64,000 nucleotides of DNA from Ilex aquifolium (taxonomy: Eukaryota; Streptophyta; Magnoliopsida; Aquifoliales; Aquifoliaceae). The translations under genes and the position numbers were made by a program. Positions 1,379 to 37,910 of this stretch are shown one piece after another (the first letter of the stretch is position 1; each line of letters opens with the position of its first letter). The notes beneath the pieces were generated by a model. It was not told where the DNA came from. It ran no database searches and saw nothing but the letters and a program-made list of their open reading frames with translations. The DNA is taken from assembly GCA_951799425.1 (NCBI GenBank), contig OX637396.1:35084701-35148700 (forward strand), given 5' to 3'.

Positions 1379-1490
1379 TTTGAGCGACAGGCACGAGAGG
1401 ATGTCGCGTAGCTTGCACGGCAGGCACGAGAGGATGCCGTGAAACTGTTAAGGCTCGAGCGGCAGGCACGAGAGGATGCCGCTTAGAAGT
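1379..1490. repeat. Short tandem repeat, GGCAGGCACGAGAGGATG unit
   Basis: Three copies of the block CGGCAGGCACGAGAGGATGCCG (first copies slightly altered) occur in about 110 bp, separated by short variable spacers. It is part of the repeat-rich interior of the LTR element. Confidence 0.75.
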
Positions 1491-1611
1491 TGAGGCTAAC
1501 GCATGAAATGGCTGCTCAACTTGAGGCTGACCTTCGAGTAGCACTTGAGAGAGCTACTAGGTCAGAGACTCAATCCATAGAGATGGAGGAGATGAGAGAT
1601 GATGCTGAGGA

Positions 1612-1835
1612 GTTGGGCGCCTGGTGGGCCCCTACTGTTGGGCGCCTTGTGTTGGGCATCAGCTGCTAGGCGCATGAGGCTAGACTCCTGAGACTGGGCA
1701 CCTGTTTCTGGGCGCCTGAGATTGGGCGCCTGAGGCTGGGTGCCTGAGATTGGGCGTCTGCTGCTGGGTGCCTGAGATTGGGCGCCTGGTGTTGGGCGCC
1801 CGAGGCTGGGTGCCTGCTTCTGGGTGCCTGGTGAG
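1612..1835. repeat. Minisatellite of GGGCGCCTGAGATT-like units
   Basis: A run of roughly 15-17 bp units built on TGGGCGCCTGAGRYT is repeated more than ten times, and a second small block of the same motif lies at 2255-2350. The motif also resembles the GGCGCC blocks inside this family's LTRs at 3720-3790 and 33815-33940. Confidence 0.8.
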
Positions 1836-1861
1836 AGGGGGCGAGACAACTCGTCTAGGCG

Positions 1862-2240
1862 ACACCATGGGAACGCTCGAGGTGGAAAGGGCGAGACCCT
1901 TCGTCGGCATCATGGGGGTGCCCAAGGTGGAGAGGGCGAGACCCCTTATCTAGGCACCATGGGGGCGCCCAAGGTAGAGAGGGCGAGACCTCTCGTTGGC
2001 ATCATGGGGGCGCCCAAGGTGGAGAGGGTGAGACCTCTCGTTGGTTTCATGGGGGGCGCCCAAGGTGGAGAGGATGAGACCCCTTGTCTGGCGGCATCAT
2101 GGGGGTGCCCAAGGTGGAGAGGGCGAGACCCCTGGTCTAGGCACCATGGGGACGCCCAAGGTAGAGAGGGCGAGACCCCTATCTGGGCTGCATCATGGGA
2201 GACACCCAAGGTGGAGAGGGCGAGACCCTTCGTCGGCATC
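1862..2240. repeat. Tandem repeat, GGTGGAGAGGGCGAGACC unit
   Basis: About eight copies of a 40-50 bp unit, each containing GCGCCCAAGGTGGAGAGG followed by GCGAGACC and a CATCATGGG or CACCATGGG block. The apparent open frames over this block are products of the repeat. Confidence 0.85.
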
Positions 2241-2350
2241 TACTACTGAGGGCGCTTGAGGCATTGGGTGCCTGAGGCGCTAGGTGCCTGAGACTAGGCG
2301 CCTGAGATTGGGCGCTGAGGTTGGGCGTTTGCTGCTGCTGGGCGCCTGGT

Positions 2351-2940
2351 GATGTTCGCCTTTTGTCTACCTTGTTGTGAGGCCAAGTTCAGACTTTTGT
2401 AAACTGTCTGCAAATTTTAGGAAAGCACAACAATTCTGGACACAATAATCTTCGCAGAAAGTTATTTCATAAAATAATAAATAACAGAATAAATAATCTA
2501 AAACGATAAAGGATAGATGATAGTCATTGGCATTCTTTCTCGTCCTCCTACGCAGGTACATGAGGAGGGAGAACACGTGAGTTCCCTGTACGCTGAGGAG
2601 GGACTACTGGGCGAGGGGCACCCTGGTGTGGCCTTGGGGCGCTCTGGCGAGGCCTCCATGGTGGGGTGCTGCTTGGCTCCTTGAGTGATTAGGTTGTTGC
2701 TCCTCTCCTGTTGGAGGGAATGGGGCTCCTCCAACAGGGTGAGGGGTGACGCCTCCTTAGAGCAGTTGCATGGTCTGTAGGAGCTGTTGCCCGACGACGG
2801 GGGTCTCCGTAGCAGATGGCTCCGAGGGTGCGAGGGGAGGCGGAGCCTCCTCCTGGTGTGCCGGGTTGTTGTCCCCCGGTTGTTAACTCATTGATCGGGT
2901 AGTGATTGTCATGGAATAGCAAGGTGGTAGAACACTTAGT
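2351..2940. other. Non-repetitive part of the retrotransposon interior
   Basis: This is unique, moderately GC-rich sequence between the tandem repeats and the primer-binding site. Minus-strand open frames here (up to 105 codons) resemble no family I recognise and are probably not translated. Confidence 0.4.
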
Positions 2941-2943
2941 CGG

Positions 2944-2962
2944 TTCCCACAGACGGCGCCAA
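2944..2962 (-). other. Primer-binding site of the LTR retrotransposon
   Basis: Read on the minus strand, the sequence just inside the LTR is TTGGCGCCGTCTGTGGGAA. This is the TGGCGCC-type tRNA primer site common right after the 5' LTR of plant retrotransposons. It sets the orientation: the LTR at 2965-3926 is the 5' LTR of a minus-strand element. Confidence 0.75.
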
Positions 2963-2964
2963 AC

Positions 2965-3926
2965 TGATGATGCACAAATTGGTCTTCGTGCAAGATCAAC
3001 AGTCAAGAATGTGTACGGGTATGATTAATAAGCAATTAATAGGCAATCAATGACAATCAATGGCAAAGTAGTAAATAATAGATCAACACAGAGATTTATA
3101 GTGGTTCGGTCCGGTTGACCTACGTCCACTCTCGGGAACGGCAGCGGTGGCCTGGTGTTCTTTATTGATGAATAATGGTACTCCGAAGAGTTACAGTGCA
3201 TTGAGGGAGATAGACTTGGTGTAGAGAGACAAAGCTCTCAGTGGAGAGAGGTGTAGTGTATGTAGAGAGCTCAAGGTGTAGAGGTCTCAAGAAGGTGATG
3301 AACATGTCACCGGACGGTGTATATCGGAGTTACAGTGCTTCTAGAGAGAGAGCAGTGTGTATGAGGGTAAGTGTAGGGGTTTCAAGGCGTGTCCTTCATA
3401 TGGAGAGGACTTACATTATATAGGTTGGGACAGGCGGTGAGGCGGTCACTATAATTTAGTAAGTACAGTTATGGTAGAACTCTACCATTTTGGTAAGTTC
3501 TATTTTGGTAGGACTTGATCTTCTCAATCTTCATCCCGGTATTCTCTCCCTCGTGCTCCTATTCAGTCGGAGGAAGATCTTGGACTGGTCTTGACCTGTC
3601 TTGACTTGAGTTGGAGTGGGCCACGTTCGTTTGGACTTGCATTGGAGTCATTCCCATGGCACTAAGGTGGACTGAGGGGAAGACAACGGAGGAGGACGAA
3701 TGAGGGCTCAAGGGGCTGCCTATGGGCGGCGCCCTAAGGGACCCTATGGGCGGCGCCCATTTGGGGACCTTGGGCGGCGCCCCCTTGGTCCTGGTGCTGG
3801 CCTCTTGCTTCATTTGGTGCTTTGACATCCTTCTAGATGGGTTGACCCAGCCTTGATTTAGAACTTCCTTCGGGCTTTCTTGGTTCATTTAAATTGGGCT
3901 TGGCCCAGTCAATTTCGGGCTCGTCA
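2965..3926 (-). mobile_element. 5' LTR (962 bp) of the minus-strand retrotransposon
   Basis: On the plus strand the LTR starts TGATGATGCACAAA and ends GGCTCGTCA, so it has the standard TG...CA ends in either direction. The boundaries were fixed by comparison with a related solo LTR at 33704-34561, which is in the opposite orientation and shares both termini, the CATCAATAAAGAACACCAG-type block and GGCGCC-rich arrays. The primer-binding site adjoins the 2965 end. The base pairs after 3926 are AAAAT; the partner target duplication would lie outside the window. Confidence 0.85.
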
Positions 3927-3931
3927 AAAAT

Positions 3932-4020
3932 AACCAAACTATGCAGCACTGGAAATTCTCCTTGTTGTAGGACCCCATCTTCTAAACCACTGTCCACCCC
4001 TACTCTGGATGTTCTTCTCC
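3932..4020 (+). repeat. Left part of a relic segment duplicated at 30.4 kb
   Basis: From about 3965 this matches 30411-30470 (TTGTAGGACCCCATC and what follows). The match resumes after the hAT element at 6107, so 3965-4020 plus 6107-7230 is one interrupted paralogue of 30411-31600. The stretch at 3935-3955 (CCAAACTATGCAGCAC) also recurs near 54105. Confidence 0.75.
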
Positions 4021-4136
4021 ACAAGTGTCCATGGGCCAGGTTACCCACGGATCTCATTATCCAACTCAAAAAAAATAGGTTCGAAATTCAATAGACCCGA
4101 TAGTTGGCCCGTTCGAGCCCAAGTCCGAGCTCAATA

Positions 4137-5468
4137 TCTATATATATGCTACTAATAAAAATACCTTAAATGTAAAACTTTTGATTCACTATTTTACCCT
4201 TATAAAAAATTTTAAATACCACACTATCCTTCTATAGTTAAATATCTAAATTATCATCATATCCTTATGTGTTTAAATCTCCAAATTACTCCTAATATCT
4301 CTTTTAATTCTCTATTCCTTATCTATAAATATCAGTATCAATGAAATTTTTTAATTGACTATGTTACCCTTAAGAAATATATGCATCATTATAATTTTCA
4401 ATAAAACGTTCAAAAAATCTTCAAAAATTTTATCAATCTAAAATTACTCATTTCAAATGTAAAGATAACATTATGCCTATATATATAAATTTTTTCATCC
4501 AAACTTTTAATCATTTTATTTTTAAAATAAAAAATAATCTTTCTATATATGTAAATTTTTTCATCCAAACTGTTAATCATTTTATTTTTAAAATAAAAAA
4601 TAATCTTTCATGTGGTTGTTTTTTAAAATAGTTTATGTTAAATCAACATAATTCTTCAATCATAGTAAACTTTTTATTTTTTATTAAGAGTTTATATAAA
4701 AATATATTATAGTGTATTTTTAAGTAAAACTTGAATTTTAGAATTTTAATGTTCTTTTAAAATATATATTATAGAGAAGTATATTATATTTTAGGGTAAA
4801 TAGTATTTTTAATCCCTAAAGTACGCATATTTTGTCAATTTGGTCCTCATTGTATCAATTATGTCAATTTAGTATGTACATTTTTTAATTAGTGTTTAAA
4901 TGATTCATACACAAATAATATGCTAAGTTTTTAATAGAAGTGATCAAGTGTTGGTCACGTGATACTGTCTGAAGAAATGACATATAGTCATTTCTGTCAA
5001 ACACCTTAATGGACCATCTGGTTAAAAGGCCATTTAAATAAGAATTGAATATTTTAGGAATAAAATTCATATATTGAGAACTAAATTGACAAAACGCACA
5101 CACTGTAAAGACCAAAAGTACTATTAAACTTATATTTTATCCCTATTGACCTAACTAATTCCTAATTATAGTAAGTATTGATTAGAATATTGATAAATAT
5201 TTTTATTTTATTCAATGTATTATAAGTTGAAACCAAATCAAATGATTTTCAAATGAATTATTTTTATCTTTTTTCTTATAGTTAGAATAACAAATTGTTG
5301 GAACGAGACAAATTTTTTTGAATTTTATAGTATAATACGAGTAATAAAAACATTAATTTTGATAAACTTGAGATGATATTTAATTTAGGTACACATATAC
5401 CTAATATTTTTTATTAATATTTTATATACGAAAATTATTCACGTCCAACACACGTGACGCATTGCTAG
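4137..5468 (+). mobile_element. Non-autonomous Helitron, 1332 bp, nested in the hAT element
   Basis: The left end is TCTATATATATGCTACTAAT preceded by A. The right end is CTAG followed by T, so the insertion is between A and T with no target duplication, as expected for Helitrons. A hairpin (TCACGT, loop CCAACAC, ACGTGA; 5439-5457) lies 7 bp before the terminal CTAG, the usual termination structure. There is no Rep/helicase frame. A second, reversed element with the same left-end style lies at 35486-35933. Confidence 0.8.
4793..5144. mobile_element. MITE inside the Helitron
   Basis: The ends are inverted and imperfect: AGGGTAAATAGTATTTTTAA at the left, and the complement of TTTTATCCCT with matching inner sequence at the right. 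Both arms continue into a TTTTGTCAATTTGGTCCT / complementary block. It is the deepest layer of a four-level nest (relic segment, hAT, Helitron, MITE). Confidence 0.65.
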
Positions 5469-6106: not shown

Positions 6107-6748
6107 TCCTCTCCTTCCATCCCCTAAAAGCTCCACTTAACCCATTTCCCCAACCCTTCACTTGAAACCTCCTTCAGTCCTATCCTCCTACCCCGAAGAC
6201 CAAACACCATCCAACACTAATTCTTCCCCCGGACAAAAACCCCCTTCCCACCGCAAGCTTTCCCCATCTCCCCTCACACCCTGACCATTGAAAAACCCCT
6301 CATTCTGAACACCTCCAACCAGACCCTTTTCCTTATATAATAAATCCATTCTTTTTCATATAATTTGGTAATTTGTTCATTAATTTGTTATTTTGGGGTG
6401 TTTAAAATAGGTGAAAATATGGTATTTAAATGTTAAAGGTTTCATTAAAATTGGTTGTCAACTCATGGGCTTGCTTATTAGTTGTCCTGAAACCTGAGAG
6501 CCTTTTTGTAATTTTCGAAAGCAATGGGCAGAATTGTAGACCTCGAGGATTGCTTATGTAATTTTATCGAGTTTCTTTCTTGGGGTTGGCGTATGGGATT
6601 TGTGCTTATGGATAAAATGTATGATAGGTTCATGAAGTCACTTCAACTTCAAGAAAAGTTTTACATCATCTTATCTTTTGTCCTCACCTCCTTGTTTGTG
6701 GATTCTTGGACATGTTTCATCATTTTTTTCTCCTCTAATCAGATGATT
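6107..6748 (+). repeat. Relic copy of plastid-L1 (PRPL1) intron-1 flank
   Basis: This parallels 30464-31107 almost throughout, and its last part (about 6618-6748) also parallels PRPL1 intron 1 at 58437-58572 (shared block ATAGGTTCATGAARTCACTT). The third copy diverges exactly where the LINE fragment begins. The open frame at 6524-6811 crosses the junction and resembles no protein. Confidence 0.7.
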
Positions 6749-6900
6749 AGGTCCAATAACATGCCAATATTTCTAAAAAAAGAGAGTTGGCACGTCATAA
6801 GATCCGGGTGACTTCGTAAGATATATTGGAAATAGAACTCTAGTTACCTTATCAATACAGAAGTTCTAACAACTAGTTGTCATTAAGGGCAATTTTGTCT
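6749..6900 (-). pseudogene. LINE reverse-transcriptase fragment (relic)
   Basis: This is the decayed twin of the fragment at 31107-31260. Read on the minus strand it gives remnants of the plant non-LTR reverse-transcriptase N-terminal motif, ending ...FF*KYWHVIG. A stop is visible and there is no start. It sits between the PRPL1-intron relic and an NLR N-terminus relic. Confidence 0.65.
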
Positions 6901-7059
6901 TTCTGAACACAATTGTCTTTTTGGACTTCAAAACTCTCTACTTAGACCTACAGACCTAGAAGTTGTTTGCGTTGGATTTGTGGTTTATTTTTCCTATTTC
7001 ATAATGATTCAAGTAAATATTCAATAAAAACAGAGAGAACTATTGATAAAAATTGAAGA

Positions 7060-7200
7060 GTGATCGACGATTTGGATGATCTATTGGACGAAATTGTGAC
7101 AAAAGTATTGGGACACAAACTGAATTTGGAGCCAATAAGGTAGGATACTAATTCTTTTAGTGAAGGATTTGAAAATCTCTTCTTCTTCCTCCCATCTCTG
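7060..7200 (+). pseudogene. Relic of an NLR coiled-coil (Rx_N) domain
   Basis: The plus-strand reading gives DDLLDEIVTKVLGHKLNLE followed by a stop, and then a ...FFFLPSLHQNP tail. This matches the stretch of NLR2 around DVDDLVDDIATEALEHKLKS (about residues 74-95) and the following FLP segment. About 45 codons survive, with no NB-ARC region. The same relic recurs at 31430-31560, so it was duplicated after decay. Confidence 0.7.
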
Positions 7201-7229
7201 CATCAAAATCCATGTATGCTACTTTCACC

Positions 7230-11805: not shown

Positions 11806-12660
11806 CGTTGTCTCAAGGCCCACCCTCTCTTTTGAATTATGTGGATCACTCTTTGCTTACACGTTAGGAAGACAAATATAATTATTTTCACTTGTAAACT
11901 TCTTATTTTCACTTGTAATTTAAGTAATAATCTTGGAACTTTTTTTTTTTTTGTCTATTTTCCAAGGAAACAACCTCTATAGAATCTTGCATAAGATATT
12001 TTTAAGTACAACTCATTGATGCGGACAACTACTTTATTAATGTTGTCATTCCTTTCAATCTAACCACTATTTCACATCAAAGATCTCAAATTTAACCTAA
12101 GAAATAAAAGGCTACAAATTACATAACATTTAGGTGATAGACAATTCATCTATTAGGAGAAAATATATGTGTTCTCTTATTATAACAAACATTAAAATTA
12201 AAAACTCGGGTCAATGGCTTACCCCAAGACCAGCTCTGTCTTTGGTTACTGGTGAGGCTGGTGTTATATGATAGGAAGATGATTCGGAGTTTGTTCAAAT
12301 ATTAACACGATAAATTTGAAAATTGTTTAACTTGCATGGGTCGAAAACCTGTTGGAATTTATATTAAAATTTCTTGATTTTGTCCTTCATTTTAATTCAA
12401 GCTTTTAGTCAGTTTAGCATTATTTTTCATTCCCAGTCAACTTCATTTAATTAAATTTTTGAACATTGCTGTAACACAAGTGGAAAAAAAAATATTGCCA
12501 TATCACCAAACTATACAAAGTTTGGTAAACGTCTAGTTCTGTGCAGAGTCATCAAGAGGAAAAGGAAAAACACAAAGGACATAAGTTATTACTTTAGTCT
12601 ATCTAACAAACAATAATATATTCCTCTGCTGAAGAAATACACCTTTTCAACAGAGGAAAA
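11806..12660 (+). repeat. Empty-site copy of NLR upstream DNA (ghost promoter)
   Basis: This is a paralogue of the NLR1 upstream region without its transposons: 11806-12245 matches 15831-16245, 12236-12575 matches 21916-22224, and 12590-12660 matches 23325-23400 and 47195-47245 (shared block CAATAATATATTCCTCTG). It ends where the NLR leader would follow, with no NLR coding sequence after it. It preserves the empty target sites of the Mutator-like element and the G-rich element. Confidence 0.8.
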
Positions 12661-15830: not shown

Positions 15831-16245
15831 CGTCGTCTCAAGGTCCATCCTCTCTTTCGAATTATGTGGATCACTCTTTGCTAACACGTTAGGAAGACAA
15901 ACATTATTATTTTCACTTGTAATCTTCTTATTTTCACTTGTAATTTAAGTAATAATCTTGGAACTTTTTTTTTTTTTGTCCATTTTCCATGCAGACAACC
16001 TCTATAGAATCTTGCATAAAATATTTATAAGTACAACTCATTGATGCAGCCAACTGCTTTATTAATGTTGTCTTTCCTTTCAATCTAACCACTATTTCAC
16101 ATCAAAGATCTCAAATTTAATCTAAGAAATAAAAGGCTACAAATTACATAACATTTAGGAGAAAATATGTGTTCTCTTATTATAACAAAAATTAAAATTA
16201 AAAACTCGGGTCAATGGCTTAGCCCCAGGACCAGCTCTGTCTTTG
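15831..16245 (+). repeat. NLR1 upstream DNA, left of the Mutator-like insertion
   Basis: It closely matches 11806-12245. The last 10 bp (16236-16245, TCTGTCTTTG) are the left copy of the target duplication made by the insertion at 16246. The paralogous sequence continues at 21926. Confidence 0.85.
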
Positions 16246-16784
16246 GAGCTTTTCCCCAAACCCATTCTCCCTCAAAACTTAATTCCTCAATCCAGTCGGT
16301 TTTAAACTTATTTCTCAAACCCAATTTTTTTTTAAAAACGTCATTTGAAATGACGCCTTCAGATGTAAAAACGTCATTTGGAATGACGATTTGAAATTGA
16401 AATTTTTTTATTGAAAACGTCATTGCAAATGACGTTTTTAAAATCATCATTTGTAATGACGTTTTTTAACATGAATTTAACAGACCATAGTTAACAGACG
16501 TTAAAAACTAAAAAGGGCTTAAATGACGTTTTTAAAAACGTCATTCTAAATAACGATTTAAACATTTATTGCCCTCCCTTAAAATTTCCCAAATCAGTCG
16601 TTAGGTCAAAATTTTTCAAAAATTTCATTCACCCACTCAGCTCTCCTCCTCCTCTCCAACGACTCTCTGAGATCTCCTCCTCTTCAATCAGCCAAGTTAC
16701 TCCGACGAAGCATGGAATGTTCAACAGCTCCACAGCTGGTCCACCAACGATTGAGCAGACCATCGAGCACCGACTGAGCAGACC
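16246..16784 (+). repeat. Left terminal inverted repeat of the Pack-MULE
   Basis: This arm is matched by the inverse complement of 21391-21915. Between 16335 and 16550 it contains several copies of the near-palindrome AACGTCATTTGAAATGACG and variants, then a TC-rich stretch. The inner limit is where the CATCGAGCACCGACTGAGCA match ends. The predicted frame at 16717-17037 is low-complexity and is not supported as a gene. Confidence 0.88.
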
Positions 16785-17036
16785 AACCACTCTCTCAGCT
16801 CACAGATCCCTCTCTCAGTCGGTCTCTCCTCCTCCTCCAACCAGTCAGCCAGATCCCTCTCTCTCAGATCGCTCCCTCCTCCTCCTCCTCCTCCAATCAC
16901 TCAGCCACTGTGTTCCCCTATCTCAGATCGATCTCTCCTCCTCCTCCTCCAACCAGTCAGCCACGATCGTCGCCGACGAGACCAGTCCGACAGGTGCCCA
17001 TCTTTCTCTCTCTAGCAATCTCTCTCTCTCTATATG

Positions 17037-17039
<3 letters not shown>

Positions 17040-17082
<43 letters not shown>
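17040..17082. repeat. (TA)n microsatellite
   Basis: About 21 uninterrupted TA units inside the Pack-MULE, just inside the left arm. Confidence 0.97.
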
Positions 17083-17083
<1 letters not shown>

Positions 17084-17791
17084 CGGTAATTTATGTATAA
17101 TATCCGATCCAGTAGAATATTCAATTTGTTGTGGGTATTTATGTTTGTATCTGCCATGAAATGAAGCTCTGTTGTGTATGAGGATTTGCTGTTATGCTAC
17201 TATGCAGCAGAGTTTTGCCCAAGTGCCTCTGTTCATGTATTTTTTTCTCACCTTCCATCCAAAATCCAATTACTGTGTTGTTTACTTTTATGATTCATTA
17301 AATTGCTTCCACGGTTGATTATAATTGAATTATAAAACCATAGAGGTCATACCAGAATCTAGAGAGTTTTTCTATTAATTTGCAGATTGGCAACACAGTT
17401 CAACCCAGCAAATTGTTAATTTTGCTTCTAATTAGACTAGTTGATGGATACGTACGTTGTACGTAGACCATTCTCAACAACTGTTTTAGATTTTTTTGTA
17501 GTTGACAAAAAGTAATCCTTTGTTACAATTAACATTTTTTAAAATTTGTATGTGCGTACTTTATATAATGTGGTTTGATGGTCACTAAATTATACTTTTA
17601 TATGGATTTAGTGGTCAAAAGGTGAAATAAACAATTTTAAAAAATTAATAACTCAAGGTGAAGTAGACATAAAAACTTATATGCAATTACGAACCTGTAA
17701 GATAAATATTTTATGAGTTGAAATTCTGTTTTGGGTTTTTTGTAATTGCCCATGGCCTTGTCTGAGTTATGAAGTTGATAGAAGTTTGCAG

Positions 17792-17926
17792 GGTTTTGCA
17801 GAAATCGAGCTGATTCAGGTTATGAAGTTGGGATTAGTCTGTACCTCTGAAACGCCTTCGAGGAGACCAAACATGGCTGAGGTTGTTCAGATTCTTGAGT
17901 CCATCAGGAATGGATTGCAACCGTAG
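17792..17926 (+). pseudogene. Captured C-terminal exon of an LRR receptor-like kinase
   Basis: After a splice-acceptor-like TTTGCAG the frame reads GFAEIELIQVMKLGLVC, then TSETPSRRPNMAEVVQILES and IRNGLQP before a TAG stop (45 codons including the stop). The core LGLVCTSETPSRRPNM is kinase subdomain XI, with its invariant arginine, of plant LRR receptor-like kinases, and AEVVQILE is the usual end of that domain. Nothing upstream encodes the rest of a kinase, so this is a last exon with its 3' untranslated DNA carried inside the Mutator-like element. The exact parent kinase is unknown. A functional protein is unlikely, but the frame is undamaged. Confidence 0.8.
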
Positions 17927-18457
17927 CAAGGGAATTAGAGAGTTGTTTTTGGACTGCCTCTTGATTCATTTTGGATTTTTACCATTGTCAATTGTTCCTT
18001 GTAATTTCTGTAACAAGTTCATTGATTTTTTGTATCCAATTTGCAAATTGTTCCTTGTAAATTTTTGTATCCAAGTTGTAGGAAGGGGGAGAGGGGTGAT
18101 TGAGACAGGGGGCAAAAACCTTTCTGTTCTGAAGGCAAAAACCTTAAAAACAAAACAAAAGTATCTGCTATCGTCAACACAACTTCATCTTGAGCTGATT
18201 CCTCTCTGGTCATGAACAAGCTTGATATATTACAACAAGAACTATTACAAAGAAAATAACCATAAACGTATGATAGGTTTATTGAATACTGAAAATCATT
18301 CATAGGAAAACAAAATCGGAAAAAATATTGAGAGTAACCAAAGCCACTTGAAAGAGCTTAATCACTTGCTATGTACAATTACCAAAGCTTAATCACTTGT
18401 TATGCCCCGACATCATTCAAAACAGTCTTCAGCACTGGAGTTATCTCTGCCTTCGTC

Positions 18458-18633
18458 TTATGAACCATCACTGTTGGCATCAAACGTTAAAATAAGTTCT
18501 AGTAGGTCTCGTCCAGCGGATGAATTCTCTCCATTCCGATCCGGACTTGTCCCCTGCCTTTGCAGTGAAAACAATTGCAGCATAAGGTCCTGCGGTGAAA
18601 CCATGTGGTGTAACCCAGCCCCTTGCCTTGGGT
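18458..18633 (-). pseudogene. Captured exon-like frame of unknown origin
   Basis: On the minus strand a frame of about 58 codons follows a pyrimidine-rich stretch and AG. It contains HHMVSPQDLMLQLFSLQRQ and GRDLLELILTFDANSDGS and ends at TAA. The composition is protein-like (amphipathic leucine-rich helix, acidic end) and an acceptor-like signal precedes it, so I read it as the last exon of a captured host gene. I do not recognise the family. It lies in the same direction as the PPR fragment upstream at 19310-19534, so one minus-strand chimeric transcript could join them. Confidence 0.45.
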
Positions 18634-19300
18634 CTCAGCTAGAAACAGAAAGTGTAAAGTCATCAGCGCAACTATGGAGGTGGGAAAGTAAATTAAACTA
18701 TTATCCTAGGACAATAATATATATGCAGTATGATCCTAGTTCCATGGTTTCCAATTGACATGCATTATCAAGGTGATGGCAATTATTTGTACTCCATAAA
18801 CAGTTGAGCATTACATGAAATAGATTACATGTCATACATGGTAGAGTGTTCAAATATGTACCACTTGGGTAACTTGCATGCATTTAGATAATTTATTTTC
18901 CTCTTTTCATCATTCGGGTTACTTTGGTTATTGTTTTGCTTTAGCTTATCATTTAAACATAATGGTCCAACAAATCTAATTATCCAAGCCATACCCCAGC
19001 ACCAGGAAATTAAAATATGATCAACAAATCCATAACACTAGCAAAGGCATCAAAATAATATAATTGGCCAAAATTAAGTGACATCACAAGTGAGAGCAAA
19101 TACATAAATAAATACCCTTTCATTTACTGAACTAAGTGACGCCAGTAGTGACAGAAATTAAATAAATAAAAGATGGACATCACCATAAAAGTATGCAGCT
19201 GCTAAAACCAGTCTCCCCCACTCATTTCTCACTACCGTACCACCTCCTGCACTAGAGTTCACACAGCACTAAGCAGTCCTGAGTGCAATAGTTTATTTAC

Positions 19301-19534
19301 TTATCTTACACAAGTACTGGGATTTACATGATGATTTGTTTTCTCTCGTAACAAATCAAATGCCTCAAGAGCTTCTTTGAAAAGGTTTTGCTTGCATAAG
19401 GAGCTTATGTAATCATTGCTTGACTGTTGGGTAACGAAGTTAGGTAACACCAGAGATTGAATCCCACAGTTGAAACTAACAACACATGGATGCCGCAATT
19501 GACGTTCCAAACTTTTTATCATTGGCAAATGCAA
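19301..19534 (-). pseudogene. Captured N-terminal piece of a PPR protein gene
   Basis: The frame begins MHLPMIKSLERQLRHPCV and runs through SSNDYISSLCKQNLFKEALE to FDLLREKTNHHVNPSTC. NDYISSLCKQNLFKEALEAFDLL is the typical start of the first pentatricopeptide repeats of a plant organelle RNA-binding PPR protein, and HVNPST the start of the next. Coding similarity stops at 19310, where GTAAGA (a good splice donor) begins. The in-frame stop lies just beyond. A full PPR protein is several hundred residues, so only the first exon-sized part is here, as expected for a Pack-MULE capture. It is on the opposite strand to the kinase fragment, so the two came from different genes. Confidence 0.75.
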
Positions 19535-19539
19535 ACTAC

Positions 19540-21290
19540 TTGAGCCCCCAGATAACCTTTACATATATTAAGAGCAGATAATATAATGATTCAACTCTTG
19601 CTACAATGATGCATATGATATCTAAAATAGTCAAAACAATTCTTGAACCGGCATCCCCAAGGAAAATCATGATGATAATGATGAGTAAAAATATACTCGG
19701 TAAACATTTGCTTTCAGGAGAGGATTGACATAGCATTTGAGGGCTGATAGAAAATTGTTGGGGAATCAAAATACTATCACTTAGGCACTAATAAAGGAAA
19801 TAGAAATTGGTGTTAACAGCAAACATTGTCATACAAATAGCAAAATCAATATAAAATCCAATAAGAAAATAGGCATAGGTGACAGAAGCTAATAAGTACT
19901 TTTTTCAAACAAGGTTGAATAGTAGATGAAGTTGCATTCGTTCTGCAATGTTATAGTTCATTCAGTCACCTAGTATGCATTTCAAAAAGAGATTTATCAA
20001 CAATTTTGAACTAATTCAGTTCCCTTCGCAGGCACATTTTTCAATAGCGCAAAGAATACCCCCATAAGCTTTTCAATTATCTATCCTTTGCCTACATTTT
20101 TTTCACCGGTATCATTTGTCTAGCTGATTTCTTTAACCCATATTCCAAACAACATAATGATATCAATCTACAGTCCGTAAAGGCATTCAGTTCTATCAGT
20201 ATTCAGAATAAGCTGGATATAAAAAACATGAGACACAATTAAACAATTATTCTAAAAGGCAATGAAAAATGACTTTATGAATCCATTATCATGTCCATAA
20301 AAAGTTAACCAAGTCAAGAAAATTTGTAAGGAGAAGAAACAATTCATGGGAATAAGTCCCTGATGTCTGCCCATATAAACACATTTTTTAATAAATAAGG
20401 GAGTGAGTTAGTAAGCTTTGATTGTAGTCGCAATATTACTAATAAATTTGACAAGTGGAACATAAATGGAAACACACAATTTGTAGCTTCAAAAGATATT
20501 AGAATCAAATGTCTTGACAATTTACATTCAAAAACGAACTGTCTAGGGACAAACACCAGCAAGAATAAGGTCATCAATACAGTATACCTTCCTCAAATAC
20601 CTCCAAATGAAAGTTTTAAGAACTAACACCTAAATGCGATTGCTATCTCAAAAATCTTACCAGCTGAAACCTATGCCTTCGTATCAGACTAATATGATAA
20701 CCCAATGCTGATGTCATCTTCTCGCTCCAGCCCATGTACGTAAAGTTGACCATATAAACAACATGCACAACACTCAAATAATTGCAACGTAACTCATCAA
20801 AGAATTAAATTTATTGTCTCCTTCCAAAGTGTAAAAGCATCATTGGTTTAATGGCGGCTTTATTCTTCAAAACCACAAGTGGTAGGAGATAAATAGAAAC
20901 TGACCAGCAACAAAGAATCTAAAAGTAGTATTTAACTGATTATGTTATGCACATTAGTCAAGTTTGTCTAGAAAGGCAATGATTTAAGATTGATGCATCG
21001 ACACAATATTTGTATCTTACAATAAAACAGAAAAATGAAGTGTAAAAGCAAATATTGAAACCTATGCATTGAATGCATCCGAATGCAATGACCTCCTTCA
21101 AACACATTCTAAGGATGCAAAAATAAGGGAAGTCATGAAATGGAGCAAAACAGGAGGCACAGAAAGCAAAATTCGACTGACTGATTAGGCTGGAATGGAG
21201 AATGGATTTAGGCAAAATTCGATTGAGGGCAAAATTAGATTGAGGGCGTCATTCGATTTAGGCTGGAATGGAGAATGGACATACTCAGTG
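19540..21290. other. Pack-MULE interior without recognisable coding sequence
   Basis: AT-rich, intron-like sequence with only short frames. It may be intron or upstream DNA carried with the PPR fragment. I could not assign it. Confidence 0.4.
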
Positions 21291-21390
21291 GTGGAAGCAG
21301 TCGTTGCTCAGTCGCAGGTGGAGGCAGTCGGTGCTCAGTCGCAGGTGGAGGTAGTCGGTGCTCGATGGTCTGCTCAGTCGGTGCTCAGTC

Positions 21391-21915
21391 GGTCTGCTCA
21401 GTCGGTGCTCGATGGTCTGCTCAATCGTTGGTGGACCAGCTGTGCAGCTGTTGAACATTCCATGCTTTGTCGGAGTAACTTGGCTGATTGAAGAGGAGGA
21501 GATCTCAGAGAGTCGTTGGAGAGGAGGAGGAGAGCTGAGTGGGTGAATGAAATTTTTGAAAAATTTTGACCTAACGACTGATTTGGGAAATTTTAAGGGA
21601 GGGCAGTAAATGTTTAAATCGTCATTTAGAATGACGTTTTAGGCTTTTTTTATTTTTTAACGCCTGTTAACTATGATCTGTTAAATTCATGTTAAAAAAC
21701 GTTATTACAAATGATGATTTTAAAAACGTCATTTGCAATGACGTTTTCAATAAAAAAATTTTAATTTCAAATCGTCATTCCAAATGACGTTTTTACATCT
21801 GAAGGCGTCATTTCAAATGACGCTTTTAAAAAAAAATTGAGTTTGAAAAATAAGTTTAAAACCGATTGGATTGAGGAATTAAGTTTTGAGGGGGAATGGG
21901 TTTGGGAAAAAGCTC
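21391..21915 (-). repeat. Right terminal inverted repeat of the Pack-MULE
   Basis: This is the inverse complement of 16246-16784 with scattered substitutions. It carries the same near-palindromic GTCATTTGAAATGACG array at 21610-21835. Just inside it, 21295-21420 holds extra direct copies of GTCGGTGCTCAGTCG / GATGGTCTGCTC that are absent from the left arm, a local tandem expansion. Confidence 0.88.
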
Positions 21916-22224
21916 TCTGTCTTTGGTTACTGGTGAGGCTGGTGTTATATGATAGGAAGATGATTCGGGGTTTGTTCAAATATTAGCACGATAAAATTTC
22001 TTGATTTTGTCCTTCATTTTAATTTAAACTTTTAGTCAGTTTAGCATTATTTTTCATTCCCATTCAACTTCATTTAATTAAATTTTTTAACATTGTTGTA
22101 ACACAAGTGGAAAAAAAATATTGCCATATCACCAAACTACACAGAGTTTGGTAAACGTCTAGTTCTGTGCAAAGTCATCAAGAGGAAAATGAAAAACACG
22201 AAGGACAAAAGTTATTACATTAAT

Positions 22225-23502: not shown

Positions 23503-26500
23503 ATGGCTATTGCTGAAGTTTTCCTGGGTGCAATTTTAGCTGTGCTATTCCAGAGATTGGCCTCTCGCGAGCTGTTCAACTTTGCTCGCATCGCGGGAAT
23601 TGATTCCCAATTGAAGAAATTACGCAAAGTGCTGATGACTATTAAAGCGGTACTCAACGATGCAGAGACTAAGCAAATAAGTGACGAAGCTGTGAATCTG
23701 TGGCTGGCGGATCTAGGGGATCTGGCTTATGATGTGGATGATCTTGTCGACAAGATCAATACAGAAGCTTTGGCCCATCAATTGAAGTCGGAGACCGAAG
23801 CAGCAGCTACCACAAGCAAGGTTCGGAACTTCCTCCCTACTTGTTGTAGCAGTTTCCCTAGATCTGTTGAGCTCAAATTCAAGTTCGAGTCCAAGATTAA
23901 GGATATCACTATCAAATTACAAGAAATTGCACAACGGAGAGATGATCTGCGTTTGATAGCCAGTCCCGAAGTAAGGTCAAACACAGGAACAGAGAGGTTG
24001 CCAACAACTTCTTTGGTGAATGAATCGCATGTCTATGGTCGGGAAAAGGAAAAACAAGATATACTCGAATTGGTGCTCAAGGATGAAGCATGTAATGATG
24101 AAGCTTGGGTCATTCCAATAGTTGGGATGGGTGGTGTGGGCAAGACCACTCTTGCTCAACTTGTGTACAATGATGACAAGGTTAAGGATTATAAGAAAGC
24201 ATGGGTGTGTGTTTCTGAAGAGTTCGATGTATTCATGATAACCAAGATTATTCATAAGGCAGTGACCGAGGAAACATGTGACATCAACGACCTCAACAGG
24301 TTGCAAGTGAGTCTCAAAAAGAAACTTTCTAAAACTAAATTTCTTATTGTTTTAGATGATGTCTGGAATGAGAACTACGAAAAATGGGATCTCCTCTGTG
24401 CTTCTTTCCGAGTTGGGCAACCTGGAAGTAAAATTATTGTTACAACTCGGAATGAAGGTGTTTCACGTATCATGCGTTCTGTTCCTCCTTACCCCCTGAA
24501 TGTTTTGGCCGAAGATGATTGTTTGTCTTTGTTGGCTCAGCACGCATTGGGCAAAAGAAATTTTGAGGACCATCCAAACTTGGAAGCAATTGGCAAGGAA
24601 ATAGTCAGAAAGTGTGGATGTTTGCCCTTGGCAGCAATGACACTAGGAGGCCTTCTACGTAATATACATAGCCCATATGAGTGGAATGCTATATTGAACA
24701 ACAAAATCTGGGAATTATCCAAGGACGAGACTCCCATTCTGCCAGCTCTCAGATTAAGCTATCAACATCTCCCTTCTCAGTTGAAGCAAATGTTTGCATA
24801 TTGTGCTATATTTCCAAGGACTACGAGTTTGAAATGGATGAGTTAGTTTTGTTATGGATGGCCGAAGGATTTGTGCCACAATCAGAAGAAATGGAAGTGG
24901 TAGGTGGAAAGTGTTTCGAGGAGCTATTATCAAGGTCCTTCTTCCAACGTTCAGGTGGCACGGAATCAAAATTTGTGATGCATGACCTTTTGAATGATCT
25001 AGCTCAGTATGTTGCTGGAGAAACATGCTTTAGATTGGATGATAATATGGAGGGCAATGAACGGTGTAAGATTTCTGAAAAAGCTCGTCACTCATCATTG
25101 ATTCGCCACAAATACGAGGTCTATAAAAGATTCAAGCCATTTCATGAACTTCAGGGTTTGCGGACTTTCATATCGCTGTCAAATGGCTGTTGGGCCAATT
25201 ATTTAAGCAATAGCGTTTTGGTCAAGCTAATATCAAACTTACGGTGCTTAAGAGTCTTATCTTTGAGTAGGTACAAAATAAGTGAGCTACTCAACTCCAT
25301 TGGGGATTTGAAGCATCTGTGGTACCTTAATTTATCTTGGACCTCGATTGCATCATTGTCAGAATCAGTGAGTACTCTCTACAATTTACAGACACTGTCA
25401 TTAAGAGGTTGCGAACAACTTCGTAAGTTGCCCACAAACATTGGAAATTTGGTGAACCTGCGCCATCTTGACATTCGAGGTACTCCAAATTTAAAAGAGA
25501 TGCCTTCAGGGATCAGTAGATTGAAATGTTTGCAAACATTGCCAAAGATTATTGTTGGCAAAAATAATGGATTTGGACTCGGAGATTTGAATGGCTTATC
25601 GCTTCTAAGAAGTGAGCTTTCCATTGAAGGGCTAGAAAATGTTACGAAAATGCGGGATGCAGAGGAGGCCAATTAAAGTTGTAAGCAGTATCTTAATGAG
25701 TTGGAATTCAAATGGGACCGCCCTTACATTGTAGATTCTCAAAATGAAGGGCTACTAGTTAGTGTGTTGGGCACGCTACGACCACATAGAGAATTGAAAA
25801 GTCTTAGAATTGAGTTCTACAGGGGCATTGCATTTCCTAGTTGGATTGGGGATCCGTCCTTCTCTAAAACAGTGTACCTTAGCCTTAAAGGTTGTACAAA
25901 ATGCGTGTATTTACCACCACTTGGCCAACTACCCTTGCTCAAAGAACTATACATAGAAGAAATGGATTCTGTAAAAAGCGTTGGTGTAGAGTTCTATTGC
26001 AGTGGTAGCACTTTGGAGATTCCATTTCTCTCGCTCGAGATTCTGCGGTTTGACAAGATGCCAAAATGGGAGGAATGGTCTTTTTCTTATGGTGTTGATT
26101 TTAGAGGACTTTTCCCTCGCCTTCGTGAGCTTTCTATATGCAGTTGTCCTAAACTGGTGAGTGTTCCACACTTCAGCCTTCCCCTTCTTCTTGATTTAAT
26201 CATAAAATATTGTGACGGGGCGGTGTTGAAAAGTTTCACTGGATTATCCTCATTAACCAACTTGACAATTTAGAATATGTCGGGACTAAATCATTTGCCG
26301 AAGGAGTTCACAAATGAGTTGGTGTCACTTAAAGTTCTTGAAATTAATGATTGTGCCACGTTGGTGACTTTGTGGCAGAATGGGATTGCACCAGAAGAAT
26401 ACCTTTCGAGTTTGCAACCCCTAAGGGTCCGCCATTGCCCTCTACTTGTGCAACTGTTAGATGAAGATCGAAGGCTACCTTGTAATCTTGAAAGTTTGGA

Positions 26501-27752
26501 TTTAATGGGATGTGAAAATCTGAAGAGGTTGCCTTATGGACTTAAAAGCCATACATATCTCAAGAAGGTGGATATCTGGAAGTGCCCAAAGCTTGTTTGG
26601 TTTCCAGAGGACAGTCTCCCGCTCATGCTTAGTCATCTTTTCGTTACAAACTCCTATTCTCTGGAGTCCATCCCTAATTGTTTCACTCGTCTTGAAGTGT
26701 TGGGGCTCTCGGATTGTTCGTCTCTGAGTTCCTTGCCGACAGACACTCTTATCTTTACGCTTAAGCATGTTTTCATCCGCCATTACGAGTCGGAGTGGCT
26801 TAAAGAGATGGTCAAACAGAGCATCATGTCAGGAAGCTTTGGGATCAGTAATTGGCCCAATTTGGAGAGTTTTACAGTACGAATGTCGGGGTTTAAATGT
26901 GAGTTGAGGTATCAAATCGACCACTTGCTCTCAGGAAGTGGTTTGCTCACTCCCAACCTAACAAGTCTTCGCATCTCTAAGTTTGAAAATCCCTTTTCCT
27001 TTCCTAGCCAAAGTCAAAGCCTCATCTTCCTTAAATCACTCAAAATAAAGGATTGTCAAAGTCTTGAGTCCTCTCCTGACCAAAATTTTCCCCCCAACCT
27101 AGAAGAGCTATATATCTCCAATTGCAAAGAACTTAAGCCTCTATCAGAGTGTGGCCTACAAAGTCTCTCCTCTCTTCGGCGTTTCACCATGAAAAGTGTT
27201 TATCCAACGATAACTTCCTTCCCGGACTCATGTTTTCTTCCTGCTACTCTAAAATTCCTTCGTATTGAGGACTTCTCGAATCTCAAGTCTCTCTTTAAGG
27301 GCCTCCAAAACCAGACCTCTCTTGAGATGCTAAAAATCTGCCTTTGCCCTAAGCTTGAGTCTCTCTTTGAGGGGTTCCAGAAGCTGACCTCTCTTAAGCA
27401 TCTGGAAATCATAAGGTGCGACAAGTTGGGTTCCTTGCCGAACGGAACGATACTTGACACACTTTCAAGCCTGACGATAATCAACTGCCCACTTCTTGAA
27501 GCACAATTTTCCAAGGAGAAAGGAGTTGATTGGCCCAAGATCGCTCACATCCCCTACGTTGATATTATTATTTCTAACAGGTACCATTCACGTTGCATTT
27601 CTTTCCTTATGATCTGCTTGCCCCTGTTTTTAAATTTTTTTTTTGGCTTGGATCCTCTGTTTTTACGTTGCATTTTTTTTTTTTGCCTCTGTTTTCAATT
27701 TGTTTTAATCATGTCTATGCCTATAAAGACAAAAAGGGAAACTTACACTTAG
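23503..27752 (+). pseudogene. NLR1: broken CC-NBS-LRR resistance gene (RPP13-like-1 type)
   Basis: The start ATG at 23503 (ACAAAATGGC) matches that of NLR2; the upstream in-frame codon is TTG. Coiled-coil (Rx_N), then GMGGVGKTTLAQL (P-loop), LIVLDDVWNENYEKWD (kinase 2), GSKIIVTTRNEG, CGCLPLAAMTLGG (GLPL), FVMHDLLNDLAQY (MHD) and LRRs are all still readable. Compared with NLR2 the lesions are: an in-frame 6-bp loss near 24190 (DFFDSKAW becomes DYKKAW); a 1-bp loss in the A-run near 24816, shifting the frame to a stop at 24844; TTA to TAA at 25674-25676; AAG to TAG at 26271-26273; and a 4-bp gain near 27565. The body of the LRR domain is otherwise open, so decay is recent. It keeps an 87-bp LRR block (about 26382-26468) missing from NLR2. 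A protein truncated after the NB domain could still be made. Confidence 0.92.
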
Positions 27753-29411: not shown

Positions 29412-31106
29412 GCTGAATTTAACCTAAGGAAACAATTTAGTACAATCTCTGAAGTTTGTTCAGAGGCAGATTAAGAGGTTGTTTGATAACTCAATTCAGC
29501 ACTTAAAACTAAATGTATTCCTTATTTTTGAATTAAGCTTGTTTAATAATACAAGACCAACATCACTTGGCGAATTAAGTTGCACTTAAAAATGAGTTAA
29601 AATTTTAAGTCAATTGGGACGGACTTAATGCTCTCGCTAAATTAGCTAAGCAGTTGGTGTTTCAGTATCTAATTTTCAGTTTTATCAAACACCACCTAAA
29701 TTGCGTGTATTTTTTCGATTTTTGTATTAAACTTGGGAATAATTGGTATGTGCGGATTGAATCAACGGGCTTTGTTTATTTTCTTCTTAAATTGTGATTG
29801 TAGTATTCGCATATTTTTTTTGATCAGTGTAGTATTCACATATTAGAAAATTGCTTTTAGTGAAGCATAGCCAAATTTTGCTTTTGCCTTTTAAACTGCA
29901 ACGGTTCAAGGGTTGAAACATTTAATGGGATTTGCTTTATTTAGGCCTCAGTTGGTAATCTATTATAGATATGCAAAATATTTGACCAGCAATGTGGGGG
30001 ATATTATTATAGCAAACGTAAGTCCTAAATAGTTGTTGCCCAGTTTGTTCTTAGTTTACCATTTCTAGTGCCATTATTCTTCAACAATGTACATGAACTA
30101 TGCTCTTGGTTTGCACTTATTACACTCTACTTGTGGTATGAAAATTTCCAATCAACCCCAATAAACTAATGGTCAAATGACATAGCTGAGAGAAACTGTC
30201 AAATGACCGTTTTACCCTTTGAAAGCCAAAAACTCAAACCCCAAACCTTAACTCCAAAATCCAAATCCAAACCATCGAGATGGCAACATAAAACCCAATT
30301 CACTAATTCCATTTTCTCTCCAATCTCCTCCCTAAAACGACCTTATTGGTGTTAGAACCCCCTCTTACCATCTCTAATTCTCACCCTCTTCTCTCAATCC
30401 CTTTCTCCTGGTTGTAGGACCCCATCTCCTAAACCACTGTCCACCCCTACCTTGGATGCTCCTCTCCTTCCATCCCCTAAAAGCTCCACTTAACCCAATT
30501 CCCCAACCCTTCACTTGAAACCTCCTCTCCCCCTACCCCAAAGGCCAAACACCATCCAACACTAATTCTTCCCCTAGACAACAACCCCCTTCCCACCTCA
30601 AGCTTTCCCCATCTCCCCTCAAACCCTGACCATTGAAAAACCACTCATTCTGAACACCTCCAACCAGACATTTTTCCTTATATAATAAGTCCATTCTTTT
30701 TCATATAATTTGGTAATTTTTTTCATTAATTTGTTATTTTGGGGCGTTTAAAATAGGTGAAAATATGGTATTTAAATGTTAATGACTTCATTAAAATTGG
30801 TTGGTCAACTCATGGGATGGGGCTTGCTTATTAGTTGTCCTGAAACTTGAGAGCCTTTTTGTAATTTTCGAAAGCAATGGGCAAAATTGTAGACCTCGAG
30901 GATCGCTTATATAATTTTATTGAGTTTCTATCTTTCTTTGGGTTGGGGTATGGGATTTGTGCTTGTGGATAAAATGTATTATAGGTTCATGAAATCACTT
31001 CAACTTCAAGAAAAGTTTTAAATCATCTTACCTTTTGTCTTCACTTCCTTGTCCGTGGATTCTTGGACATGTTTTTTCATCATTTTTTCCCCTCTAATCA
31101 GTTTGT
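29412..31106 (+). repeat. Relic of PRPL1 intron 1
   Basis: It parallels the real PRPL1 intron from about 57263 to 58572: shared blocks CTCTGAAGTTTGTYCAGAGG, GCAACGGTTCAAGGGTTGAA, ACATGAACTATGCTCTWGG and CCCCAATAAACTAATGGTCA. The real intron has two extra pieces (57418-57595 and about 57830-58010) that are absent here. The stretch 30411-30960 is instead shared with the relic at 3965-4020 and 6107-6610. PRPL1 exons are missing, so it is a fragment, not a gene copy. Confidence 0.8.
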
Positions 31107-31260
31107 TAGGTCCAATAACATGCCAATATTTCTGAAAAAAGAGAGTAGGCGCGCCATCAAATCCGGACGACTTGGTAGGATACATTGGAAATAGAGCTCT
31201 AGTTACCTCATCGATATGGAAATTTTGACTACTGTTTGTCATCAAGGGCAATTTTGTCTT
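31107..31260 (-). pseudogene. LINE reverse-transcriptase fragment
   Basis: The minus strand encodes IDEVTRALFPMYPTKSSGFD followed by GAPTLFFQKYWHVIG. This is the N-terminal part of the plant L1-type reverse transcriptase domain (usual form: ...AL..M...K.PGPDG.PALFFQKYW..VG). Only about 50 codons remain, with no other LINE parts. Its start coincides with the point where similarity to the PRPL1 intron ends. Confidence 0.75.
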
Positions 31261-31429
31261 TATGAACACAATTGTCTTTTGGACTTCAAAACTCTCTACT
31301 TAGACTTATAGATCTAGAAGTTGTATGCGTTGGATTTGTGGTTTATATATCCTATTTCATAATGATTCATGTAAATATTCAATAAAAACGGAGAGAATGA
31401 TGGATAAAAATTGAAGCAGTGGTCGACGA

Positions 31430-31560
31430 TTTGAATGATCTATTGGATGAAATCGCGACAGAAATATTGGGACACAAGTTGAGTTTGGAGCCAATAAGGT
31501 ACGATACTAATTCTTTTAGGGAAGAATTTGAAAATCTCTTCTTCTTCCTCCTATCTCTTC
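31430..31560 (+). pseudogene. Relic of an NLR coiled-coil domain
   Basis: It reads DLNDLLDEIATEILGHKLSLE followed by damage, equivalent to NLR2 around DVDDLVDDIATEALEHKLKS. It is the twin of 7060-7200. Both lack everything after the first coiled-coil helices. Confidence 0.7.
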
Positions 31561-31569
31561 ATCAAAATC

Positions 31570-32175
31570 CATGCATGATAAGTTAATTAGGTCATTAAAT
31601 TGGGTCAGAGTATATAATTGCTTTTGCTCACAAAACTCAAAACAAGGAGAAGTTATTAATTTAAGGTGCTTATGGTTCATTTAAATTAATTACATACATA
31701 AATTATTAGTTGAATTCTATTGAAATGGGGACTTATGTGTTACTAACCATGTCAATTACAATTAGGTGTCATTGTTAACGTTATTGTGTCTTAAATTTCT
31801 TTAGATTGTAGCAGTGTCCACCAAATAGTCGACCACATCAAATTTTGACATCCCACGTACATACATGATCTCTAATAATTAATTTTGATGTGACATATTG
31901 AGGTTAATATACAATTCCCAGGGTCAAAGTGACCTTTTGATATCTTTATAGATGGAAAATCAAACATGGTCCAGTAATTGGGGCATATCACCATAATTCA
32001 AGGTGCAATTTCAAATTTTTAATCTTTTAAATTGTAAACTATTTTATATCCACTAAAATTTAAATATTGAATTGAATTAAATTATTTGACAAATATAAAG
32101 AGTTAAAGTCTGAATATTAGTATTATTATAATTTTACTCTTCTCTTTTAACCATCTCACTGTAACCACCTTATTC
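31570..32175. other. AT-rich intergenic DNA
   Basis: No gene or defined repeat was seen. Confidence 0.5.
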
Positions 32176-35955: not shown

Positions 35956-37910
35956 TAAAGACGTTATTTACCTTTGGTTAAGGGGAGGAGCAAGATTAGG
36001 GATTTTGAGGATATAATTTTGAAGTTTAAGGCAAAGTTAGAGAGTTGGTATGCGAAATTGCTATCTAATGCAGGAAGGTTGGTGTTGGTGCAGGCAGTAT
36101 TGAATGCAGTTCCTGTGCATTTGATGTCTTGTCTGAATTTGCCTAAAGAGGTTTTGAGTAGATTAAATTCTTTGATGGCATCTTTTATTTGGTCTAGTAA
36201 GGCTGGTGTGAAGAAGAGGCATTTGGTCTCTTGGGGGAATATAACTAAGCCAAAGCAGGAAGGGGGGTTAGGGATTAGGAGATTGGAGGATGTACAGGCT
36301 CCTTTTGAGGATGAAACAGGTTTGGGGAATTTTGCAAGGGAAATCTTTGTGGGCAAAAGTTTTTTCTACGAAATTTCTGAATAATCAGTATATGATGAGG
36401 CATAGGGTGCAAGGGAAAGCGAAATGTTTTCGTATGTTGCAGCCTTGGTTTTCTTCTGTGGTGTCTCATTCTTTGGACATTATAGGGGATGGGGCGTCTA
36501 TGGATTTTTGGTGTTCCAATTGGCTTGGTACTGGTTCTCTCATTGATAGGGTGAGTGATGTTCCACAGTACTTTCCAAAAATTGCAGAGGTATTTGATGG
36601 AGAAGGGTGGGATTGGCAGAGATTGGGGATGCTGATTAGTGATGAGATAAAGACAGAAATTTTGAATGCTAATGTTTGTTTGTCTGATAATTCTGATTTT
36701 TTGGTATGGAGGTTAAGTGATTCAGGTAGTTTTTCTGTCAAAACTGCTTGGCAAGTGGTGAGAAATTCTGATGAAGTGGATGAGGTTGCTAAAGTAATTT
36801 GGAAACAGGTTGCTCATCCTAGCGCTAAGTTGTTGGGTTGGAAAATTTTTAAGAATGCTATTCCAGTGGATGTTTGTTTTCAGAGATTGGGTGTAAGCCT
36901 TGCAAGTAAATGTACGTTATGCTGTAAAGGAGTGGAATCTGGAATTCATGTTTTTATTCAATGTGAATATACTGTTAAGGTGTGGCAGAGATTGGCTGGT
37001 TTTTTTGGTTTTCGATTAGTGGTAAACGAACGACCTATGGAGAGGATGATGAGACTGCTAAGAGTGTATAAAAGGCAGCCAATGAGTCATTTTCTTATTA
37101 GAAGTTTAGCTTTGACTGTTTTTGGCAAGTGTGGAGGGAGAGAAGTAGTAGAGTGTATGGGGAAGGTTGTTTGTCAGAATACTCTATTTTTCGTAGAATC
37201 TGTGCTATTCTTCGGCTACAGGCTTTTGGGGTGAAACCTAAAGCCCTTGAGAATGAGGAAGGTAAGAAGATATTGAATGATTTGGGGGTAGATTCTGGTA
37301 ATAATGTTCGAGTAAGGGCAGTGTGGGTGTGTTGGTCTTTGCCAGATGATGGGTGCTTAAAATTAAACGTGGATGGCGCGTCAAAAGGAAACCCAGGGAA
37401 AGCGGGTGGAGGTGTTGTGGTAAGAAATCAATGGGGAGGTTTAGTTCTTGCAACATCTTTCTTTTATGGAACTTGCTCAAACATGGAGGCAGAACTTAAT
37501 GCTTTAAAAGATGGACTGTGCCTTATTGAGAGGTATGGGTTATCTGTGAATCAGATACAGATTGAAGCCGACTCGGAAGTGATGGTGAATATGGTAATGA
37601 AAGGCCATCTGCGAGCATGGAAATATTGGGGGAAGTTAAGGCAAATAATAAATGAGACTTTGGGGAGACTGAGGTTCAGTCTTGTGCATGTGTACCGTGA
37701 GGCTAATTCGTTAGCTGATTTCTTCGCTAACTGGGCTGTCCAGACTGAAAAAACATACAAAATCAAAATTAGTGTTTTTTGATTTTGTATGTTTTTTTTG
37801 GAATTTTAAGAGCAGGTCTGTCTGCTTCTTCCCAAAAGTGTAATTCTTTTTGCATATGAAATAAAATTTCTTGATTTGTTAAAAAAAATAATAAATAAAG
37901 ATGTTACTTA
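35956..37910 (+). mobile_element. 5'-truncated LINE (L1-type) retrotransposon
   Basis: This is the 3' third of a plant LINE. It begins within the reverse-transcriptase domain and ends in an A-rich tail (37881-37899). It is flanked by a near-perfect 15-bp duplication: TAAAGACGTTATTTA (35956-35970) and TAAAGATGTTACTTA (37896-37910), two mismatches. A 5' truncation, an A-rich 3' tail and a target duplication together show LINE integration by target-primed reverse transcription. A possible late stem-loop precedes the tail around 37740-37800 (GTTTTTTGATTTTGTATG direct copies). Confidence 0.88.
35974..37782 (+). pseudogene. LINE ORF2 C-terminus: RT thumb, zf-RVT and RNase H, two frameshifts
   Basis: Three overlapping frames make one decayed protein. 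The first (to about 36300) has the RT C-terminal motif LSNAGRLVLVQAVLNAVPVH and SFIWSS...GGLGIRRLEDVQ. After a frameshift near 36295-36305 the second has the zf-RVT region (GSFSVKTAWQVV, then CTLCCKGVESGIHVFIQC). After a second shift near 37125 the third has WRERSSRVYG and an RNase H domain with all four acidic positions visible: NVDGASKGNPG, MEAELNALKDG, IEADSEV and REANSLADFFAN. Such RNase H tails are typical of plant L1-type LINEs. The element cannot move by itself; a stand-alone RNase H frame (37129-37782) remains open. Confidence 0.9.

Follow-up and report, generated by a model that had tools for sequence, protein, structure and literature searches.

The Pack-MULEs described in rice and tomato have long inverted ends, carry gene fragments from unlinked parents and lack a transposase (PMC3310237; PMC4858842), and multi-parent examples are already known from rice (PMC4858842). 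How such elements acquire genes is an unsolved question. Published models include the fusion of neighbouring insertions, put forward for cargo gain by Pack-TYPE elements (PMC8903248), and gap filling and FoSTeST, put forward for animal Pack-TIRs (PMC8277862). We examined a Pack-MULE (a Mutator-like element, MULE, with host-gene cargo) at positions 16246-21915 of a 64,000-nucleotide stretch of Ilex aquifolium DNA (C6:35084701-35148700, hereafter the window; element coordinates are window positions minus 16245). It shares all three features of the rice and tomato elements and differs from them in that seven source loci are matched within 5.7 kb and that nearly the whole interior recurs in sibling elements, some of them with clearly different ends. 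In kind it is an ordinary Pack-MULE with an unusually legible history, and the cargo shared between elements is the newer point. We consider it probable that it was assembled stepwise, with cargo relayed between related elements by template switching, and then inserted at its present site.

The arms of the element are inverted repeats from end to end (left, 16246-16787, plus strand, 542 bp; right, 21388-21915, minus strand, 528 bp), an alignment that had been named beforehand as a check; they differ by one 14-bp indel and, within the outer 270 bp, at 12 positions. We did not use this divergence as an insertion clock, since arms in this MULE family may differ already at insertion. Exact copies of the decamer TCTGTCTTTG flank the arms (16236-16245 and 21916-21925), so that both the inverted arms and the perfect 10-bp target duplication of a preliminary description, made from the sequence alone, were found again. 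The window holds one further copy of TCTGTCTTTG, in paralogous sequence that lacks the element. This is the unoccupied site that had been placed at 12236-12245; the site stands, and its coordinates shift by one base to 12235-12244. When the flanks are joined over the insertion site and compared with the empty stretch, 692 of 729 ungapped positions match. On the simplest reading, the insertion would postdate the local duplication.

Target duplications in the Mutator superfamily, Pack-MULEs included, are 9-11 bp long, and the 10 bp of the element fall in this range. We searched the genome (800 Mb, 103 contigs) with the left arm and scored the best 40 of 558 candidate places, two of which are the arms of the element itself. 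Twenty regions round places with terminal inverted repeats (TIRs), the middle of one large element and one further region yielded 19 siblings, cited below by locus label. Target duplications are perfect and 9-10 bp long in all 18 siblings with both ends readable (15 scored by program, two by eye from printed flanks and one in a separate region; L015 offers one end only). The ends of one sibling, L018 (C16, L018:594-9053, 8460 bp), are 83% identical over 558 bp to the left arm of the element. L018 encodes the MULE domain PF10551 above the cutoff (E 1.5e-9). Its matches to DBD_Tnp_Mut and SWIM stay below the cutoff, and its transposase frames are interrupted by stops. Because the sibling duplications are perfect at 9-10 bp and a sibling with related ends encodes this broken Mutator-type transposase, the assignment of the element as a non-autonomous Pack-MULE is supported. 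When the L018 transposase open reading frames were used as tblastn queries against 19 elements (the element and 18 siblings, without L015), matches were confined to L018 and a fragment in L020, which retains an N-terminal transposase remnant. Inside the element there was no significant match (best E 1.4), and 10 of its longer interior frames matched no Pfam family at E 0.01, in agreement with the earlier statement that the interior has no transposase.

The cargo of the element is widely shared. Within its interior (element 543-4920, 4378 bp), 4239 bp, or 97%, recur piecewise in siblings, while 3231 bp match loci outside elements. Among the best 40 of 93 candidates, the full interior is matched only by the element itself. 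A first block (16787-19030; element 542-2785) recurs reversed, as a single block, in a MULE at C13:13760367-13783455, where the match resumes beyond a nested long terminal repeat (LTR) retrotransposon with a 5-bp duplication; four captured pieces (C1, kinase, WD40 and phosphatase-like, described below) stand in the same order in both. The C13 element (L024/L029/L025) has been swollen to 23 kb by this retrotransposon, which has three LTR copies in a tandem arrangement. We considered whether it might be two elements and rejected this in favour of a single MULE that harbours a nested LTR retrotransposon.

A second block (19022-19539, minus strand; element 2777-3294) is found in L022 and L023 (C10:2256714 and C1:32901127) with 98.6% identity over 518 bp, ungapped. 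It joins an unassigned segment, a LINE (long interspersed nuclear element) scrap and the start of a pentatricopeptide repeat (PPR) gene, co-linear in all three elements. L022 and L023 are 99.8% copies of each other, so this combination occurs at two sites. Further to the right, 19679-21168 (element 3434-4923) is also in L010 (C3), where the initial 143 bp of the carrier-gene piece of the element are missing, and 20338-20904 (element 4093-4659, 567 bp) is also in L011 (C7), 98.9% identical. The ends of the element are 84-90% identical to those of L022 and L011 over the outer 270-300 bp; over the outer 270 bp, ungapped, the figures are 84-89% for these two, 93-96% for the C13 element, 88-94% for L010 and 87-97% for L009. 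Crossing between elements is thus more clearly suggested by the PPR block and the L011 piece. A WD40/CDC20-like tail (recognised by eye, about 97%) is common to L010 and three copies (L027, L028 and L030) of an element type with different ends.

To find the source loci of the cargo, we queried the genome with the DNA of element 743-5035 (window 16988-21280). Among the best 40 of the 93 candidates, best matches lie on C12, C19, C13, C6, C3, C1 and C17, and the interior combines pieces of at least five host gene regions; a "source" is here the best match in this genome, and a paralogue or another allele may be the true parent. No TIR was seen in the fetched source stretches (0.6-3.6 kb each). 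The preliminary description had listed three fragments from two or more host genes; the count of pieces is higher, source loci were found on other chromosomes, and the three intervals proposed for a parent-gene search (17792-17926, 18458-18633 and 19310-19534) all have ordinary loci of the same genome as their best matches.

From left to right, the first, unassigned piece (17226-17436) has 97% DNA identity to C1:61010753-61010963 and also matches at C1:60957380. A dispersed repeat of 77-80% identity spans about element 1175-1478. The second piece (17775-18105, plus strand; element 1530-1860) best matches a locus from C13:30475883 on, with leucine-rich repeat (LRR) and kinase domains. It holds the last ~49 codons (to 17926) and the 3' flank of a 502-codon LRR receptor-like kinase frame, and lacks 118 and 536 bp of the parent, of which a second copy (C17:19346717) has a stop. 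Alone, the kinase piece matched no Pfam family and, among PDB entries, weakly matched the BAK1 kinase (E 0.0009). The receptor-kinase identification made at the outset holds for the piece; a separate exon it is not, being the end of the single parental frame. The third piece (18134-18772, minus strand; element 1889-2527) takes in the final exon of a WD40-repeat gene with adjoining sequence, with a best match at C6:2145018-2146267, of which it lacks 606 bp, and a paralogue at C1:33888198-33889329 (94%). The coding frame of this exon alone had no Pfam match, and an identity search with a non-coding frame was also empty; the minus-strand exon, left without a name in the preliminary description, can now be named.

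Two smaller pieces were labelled by eye: one like a purple acid phosphatase locus (18814-18960; C3:39510469-39510615, 98%), and a 72-bp LINE RNase-H-like scrap (19180-19251) identical to C17:9775151-9775222 and 99% identical at C6:35794034. The PPR gene start (19309-19539, minus strand; element 3064-3294), about 70 codons counting from the first ATG, differs from C19:24001034-24001264 at one position in 231 bp. The last piece (19536-21168, minus strand; element 3291-4923) measures 1.63 kb and was taken from beside a mitochondrial-carrier gene, on its 3' side (C12:25646186-25647814, 96%).

The open frame of the PPR parent continues past the end of the piece. The PPR start had been correctly recognised; the splice donor assigned to its end is rejected, and with the parental frame uninterrupted the supposed donor is a capture junction. 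For that reason nothing in the sequence supports the proposed splice from 19310 to 18633. Capture from spliced RNA was likewise rejected: the missing stretches of 118, 536 and 606 bp are intron-like, yet none has GT-AG borders. Differences from the parent number 1 in 231 positions for the PPR piece and 38 in 1483 for the carrier piece (Fisher P 0.053), a hint only that the PPR capture may be the younger. No clear C-to-T excess was seen among those gene-to-element differences that are common to elements.

Exact microhomology was present at seven junctions (8, 4, 3, 5, 3, 4 and 3 bp). Three lie in the element and two in L011; the other two are deletions, of 606 bp (WD40) and, in L013, of 974 bp. 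The sum of 30 compares with a random mean of 5.25 (P 0.0009), and single junctions have P values from 0.0001 to 0.068. BLAST overlaps that resemble insertion duplications were omitted from this test, as was a further overlap at L016 1119-1122. L016 (C1:15778889-15785563) carries a serine carboxypeptidase piece, with two frames and an apparent intron between them.

The stepwise assembly that we favour would begin with the copying of host-gene pieces into members of the family; the element itself is presumably moved in trans by a Mutator-type transposase recognising its ends of about 540 bp. Later, during repair of a break or of a gap left by excision within one element, DNA synthesis would switch at a few microhomologous base pairs to a related element, whose cargo would serve as filler. 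A left half of the C13 type, a PPR piece of the L022 type and a 3' piece of the carrier gene would in this way have been joined, and the assembled element would then have inserted where it now stands. The animal Pack-TIRs explained by gap filling and FoSTeST are similar in their microhomology junctions, template switching and multicopy spread with distinct duplications; the filler described for them is host sequence, whereas here it seemingly is sibling-element cargo (PMC8277862). Narrow phrase searches of the open-licence literature found no cargo relay between Pack-MULEs, a result that says little on its absence. A broader proposition, on which we are evenly divided, is that cargo circulates in a network among the Pack-MULEs of this genome: each gene would be captured a single time, after which template switching guided by microhomology would pass its pieces on to elements whose ends differ, and new multi-gene mosaics would thus arise mainly from mosaics and not from host genes.

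Two comparisons bear on the direction of transfer. The extent of the PPR gene is 365 bp in L022 and L023, 231 bp in the element, 115 bp in L013 and 86 bp in L017. Since the L022/L023 piece is longer than that of the element, the element cannot have been their donor. L013 has the same capture end as L022, with 38 bp past that end, and all five elements would be explained if the PPR gene had been captured a single time and then relayed with truncation. In the 567-bp piece, the element and L011 differ at 6 positions while each differs from the parent gene at 16, and 13 differences from the parent are common to three elements. Separate captures under a clock predict about 16 differences between the two elements (Poisson P 0.004; equal-rates binomial, 6/22, P 0.026).

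An alternative, which we regard as unlikely, is that several captures were made independently and straight from host genes, the sharing reflecting repeated capture and plain descent between some elements. Multi-parent genes derived from MULEs are known in rice (5-10%; PMC4858842), and L027 and the element contain adjacent parts of one locus with hardly any overlap (L044 101-283 and 270-416, respectively). The alternative also gains from the kinase and WD40 pieces, in which distances between elements and distances from element to gene are about equal. It has difficulty with the compound junctions that elements share, namely the co-linear second block of L022, L023 and the element and the identical order of pieces in the first block and the C13 element, and with an L011 piece that is nearer to the element than to the parent. 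For the PPR and L011 pieces, relay by template switching is the account with the best support; shared descent explains part of the pattern.

Several observations weigh against relay. The halves related to the C13 element and L010 may be shared by descent, because the ends of the element are 93-96% and 88-94% like theirs, and the full right arm of L011 is 90.5-92.3% like the arms of the element, which makes the contrast with the cargo smaller. The first block is star-like: its WD40 part has 8/279 differences to the C13 element and 7/270 to the gene, and its kinase part 3/174 and 4/186. We would accordingly argue its common origin from the order of the pieces, not from distance. The 13 common differences in the 567-bp piece are unpolarised, and might be produced by faster change in the parent or by an allele not sampled. 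Between the element and L022, the PPR part has 0/231 differences and the adjoining sequence 7/287 (Fisher P 0.019), an unevenness that a single transfer would not predict. The seven junctions tested were picked by hand (both partners known, without filler, unlike an insertion duplication) and are not exhaustive, and two breaks of the kinase piece have fillers of 3 and 23 bp instead of microhomology, the longer resembling, by eye, the sequence just upstream, as in slippage. Finally, the sample comprises only 19 siblings.

Fusion of neighbouring insertions, in which two close elements are mobilised as one (Gisby and Catoni, for Pack-TYPE elements), is improbable here. The model has support in maize and rice (PMC8903248) and, like relay, lets cargo grow by combining the material of two elements; on C3, about 59 kb separate a kinase-bearing TIR place from the phosphatase-like locus. 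Unlike what fusion envisages, a short-word search for relics of internal ends at the fragment junctions matched only the right subterminal stretch itself, and the tested junctions sit at matches of 3-8 bp within cargo.

Downstream of the element is a CC-type (coiled-coil) nucleotide-binding leucine-rich repeat (NLR) pseudogene (23503-27752, plus strand), whose frame shifts near 24.8 kb and meets stops at 25674 and 26271. Its intact CC-NLR paralogue (47376-51557) is open throughout, with 1393 codons. Similarity between the two begins at 23327, so that the element lies outside it, 1.4 kb from the common stretch and 1.58 kb from the NLR start codon. A regulatory or immune role, in which the insertion altered expression of the adjacent NLR or supplied new exons, is very improbable, as the position of the element on the 5' side of the NLR in the same cluster is set against a broken gene and a distance of 1.58 kb. 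The view that an immune-type kinase had been placed in an NLR promoter likewise finds no support: the kinase piece amounts to the last ~49 codons and 3' sequence, the neighbouring NLR is a pseudogene, and no immunity role follows.

If cargo relay is true, counts of Pack-MULE capture events and of "chimeric genes" need correction. One genome here holds the source loci, candidate donors, recipients and junctions, so that both the succession of captures and the switching of templates are open to direct test. Elsewhere in the window, LINE-type frames with zf-RVT and RNase H domains lie at 36272-37782, and a direct repeat of 1.1 kb (6107-7221 and 30460-31580) has 90% identity.

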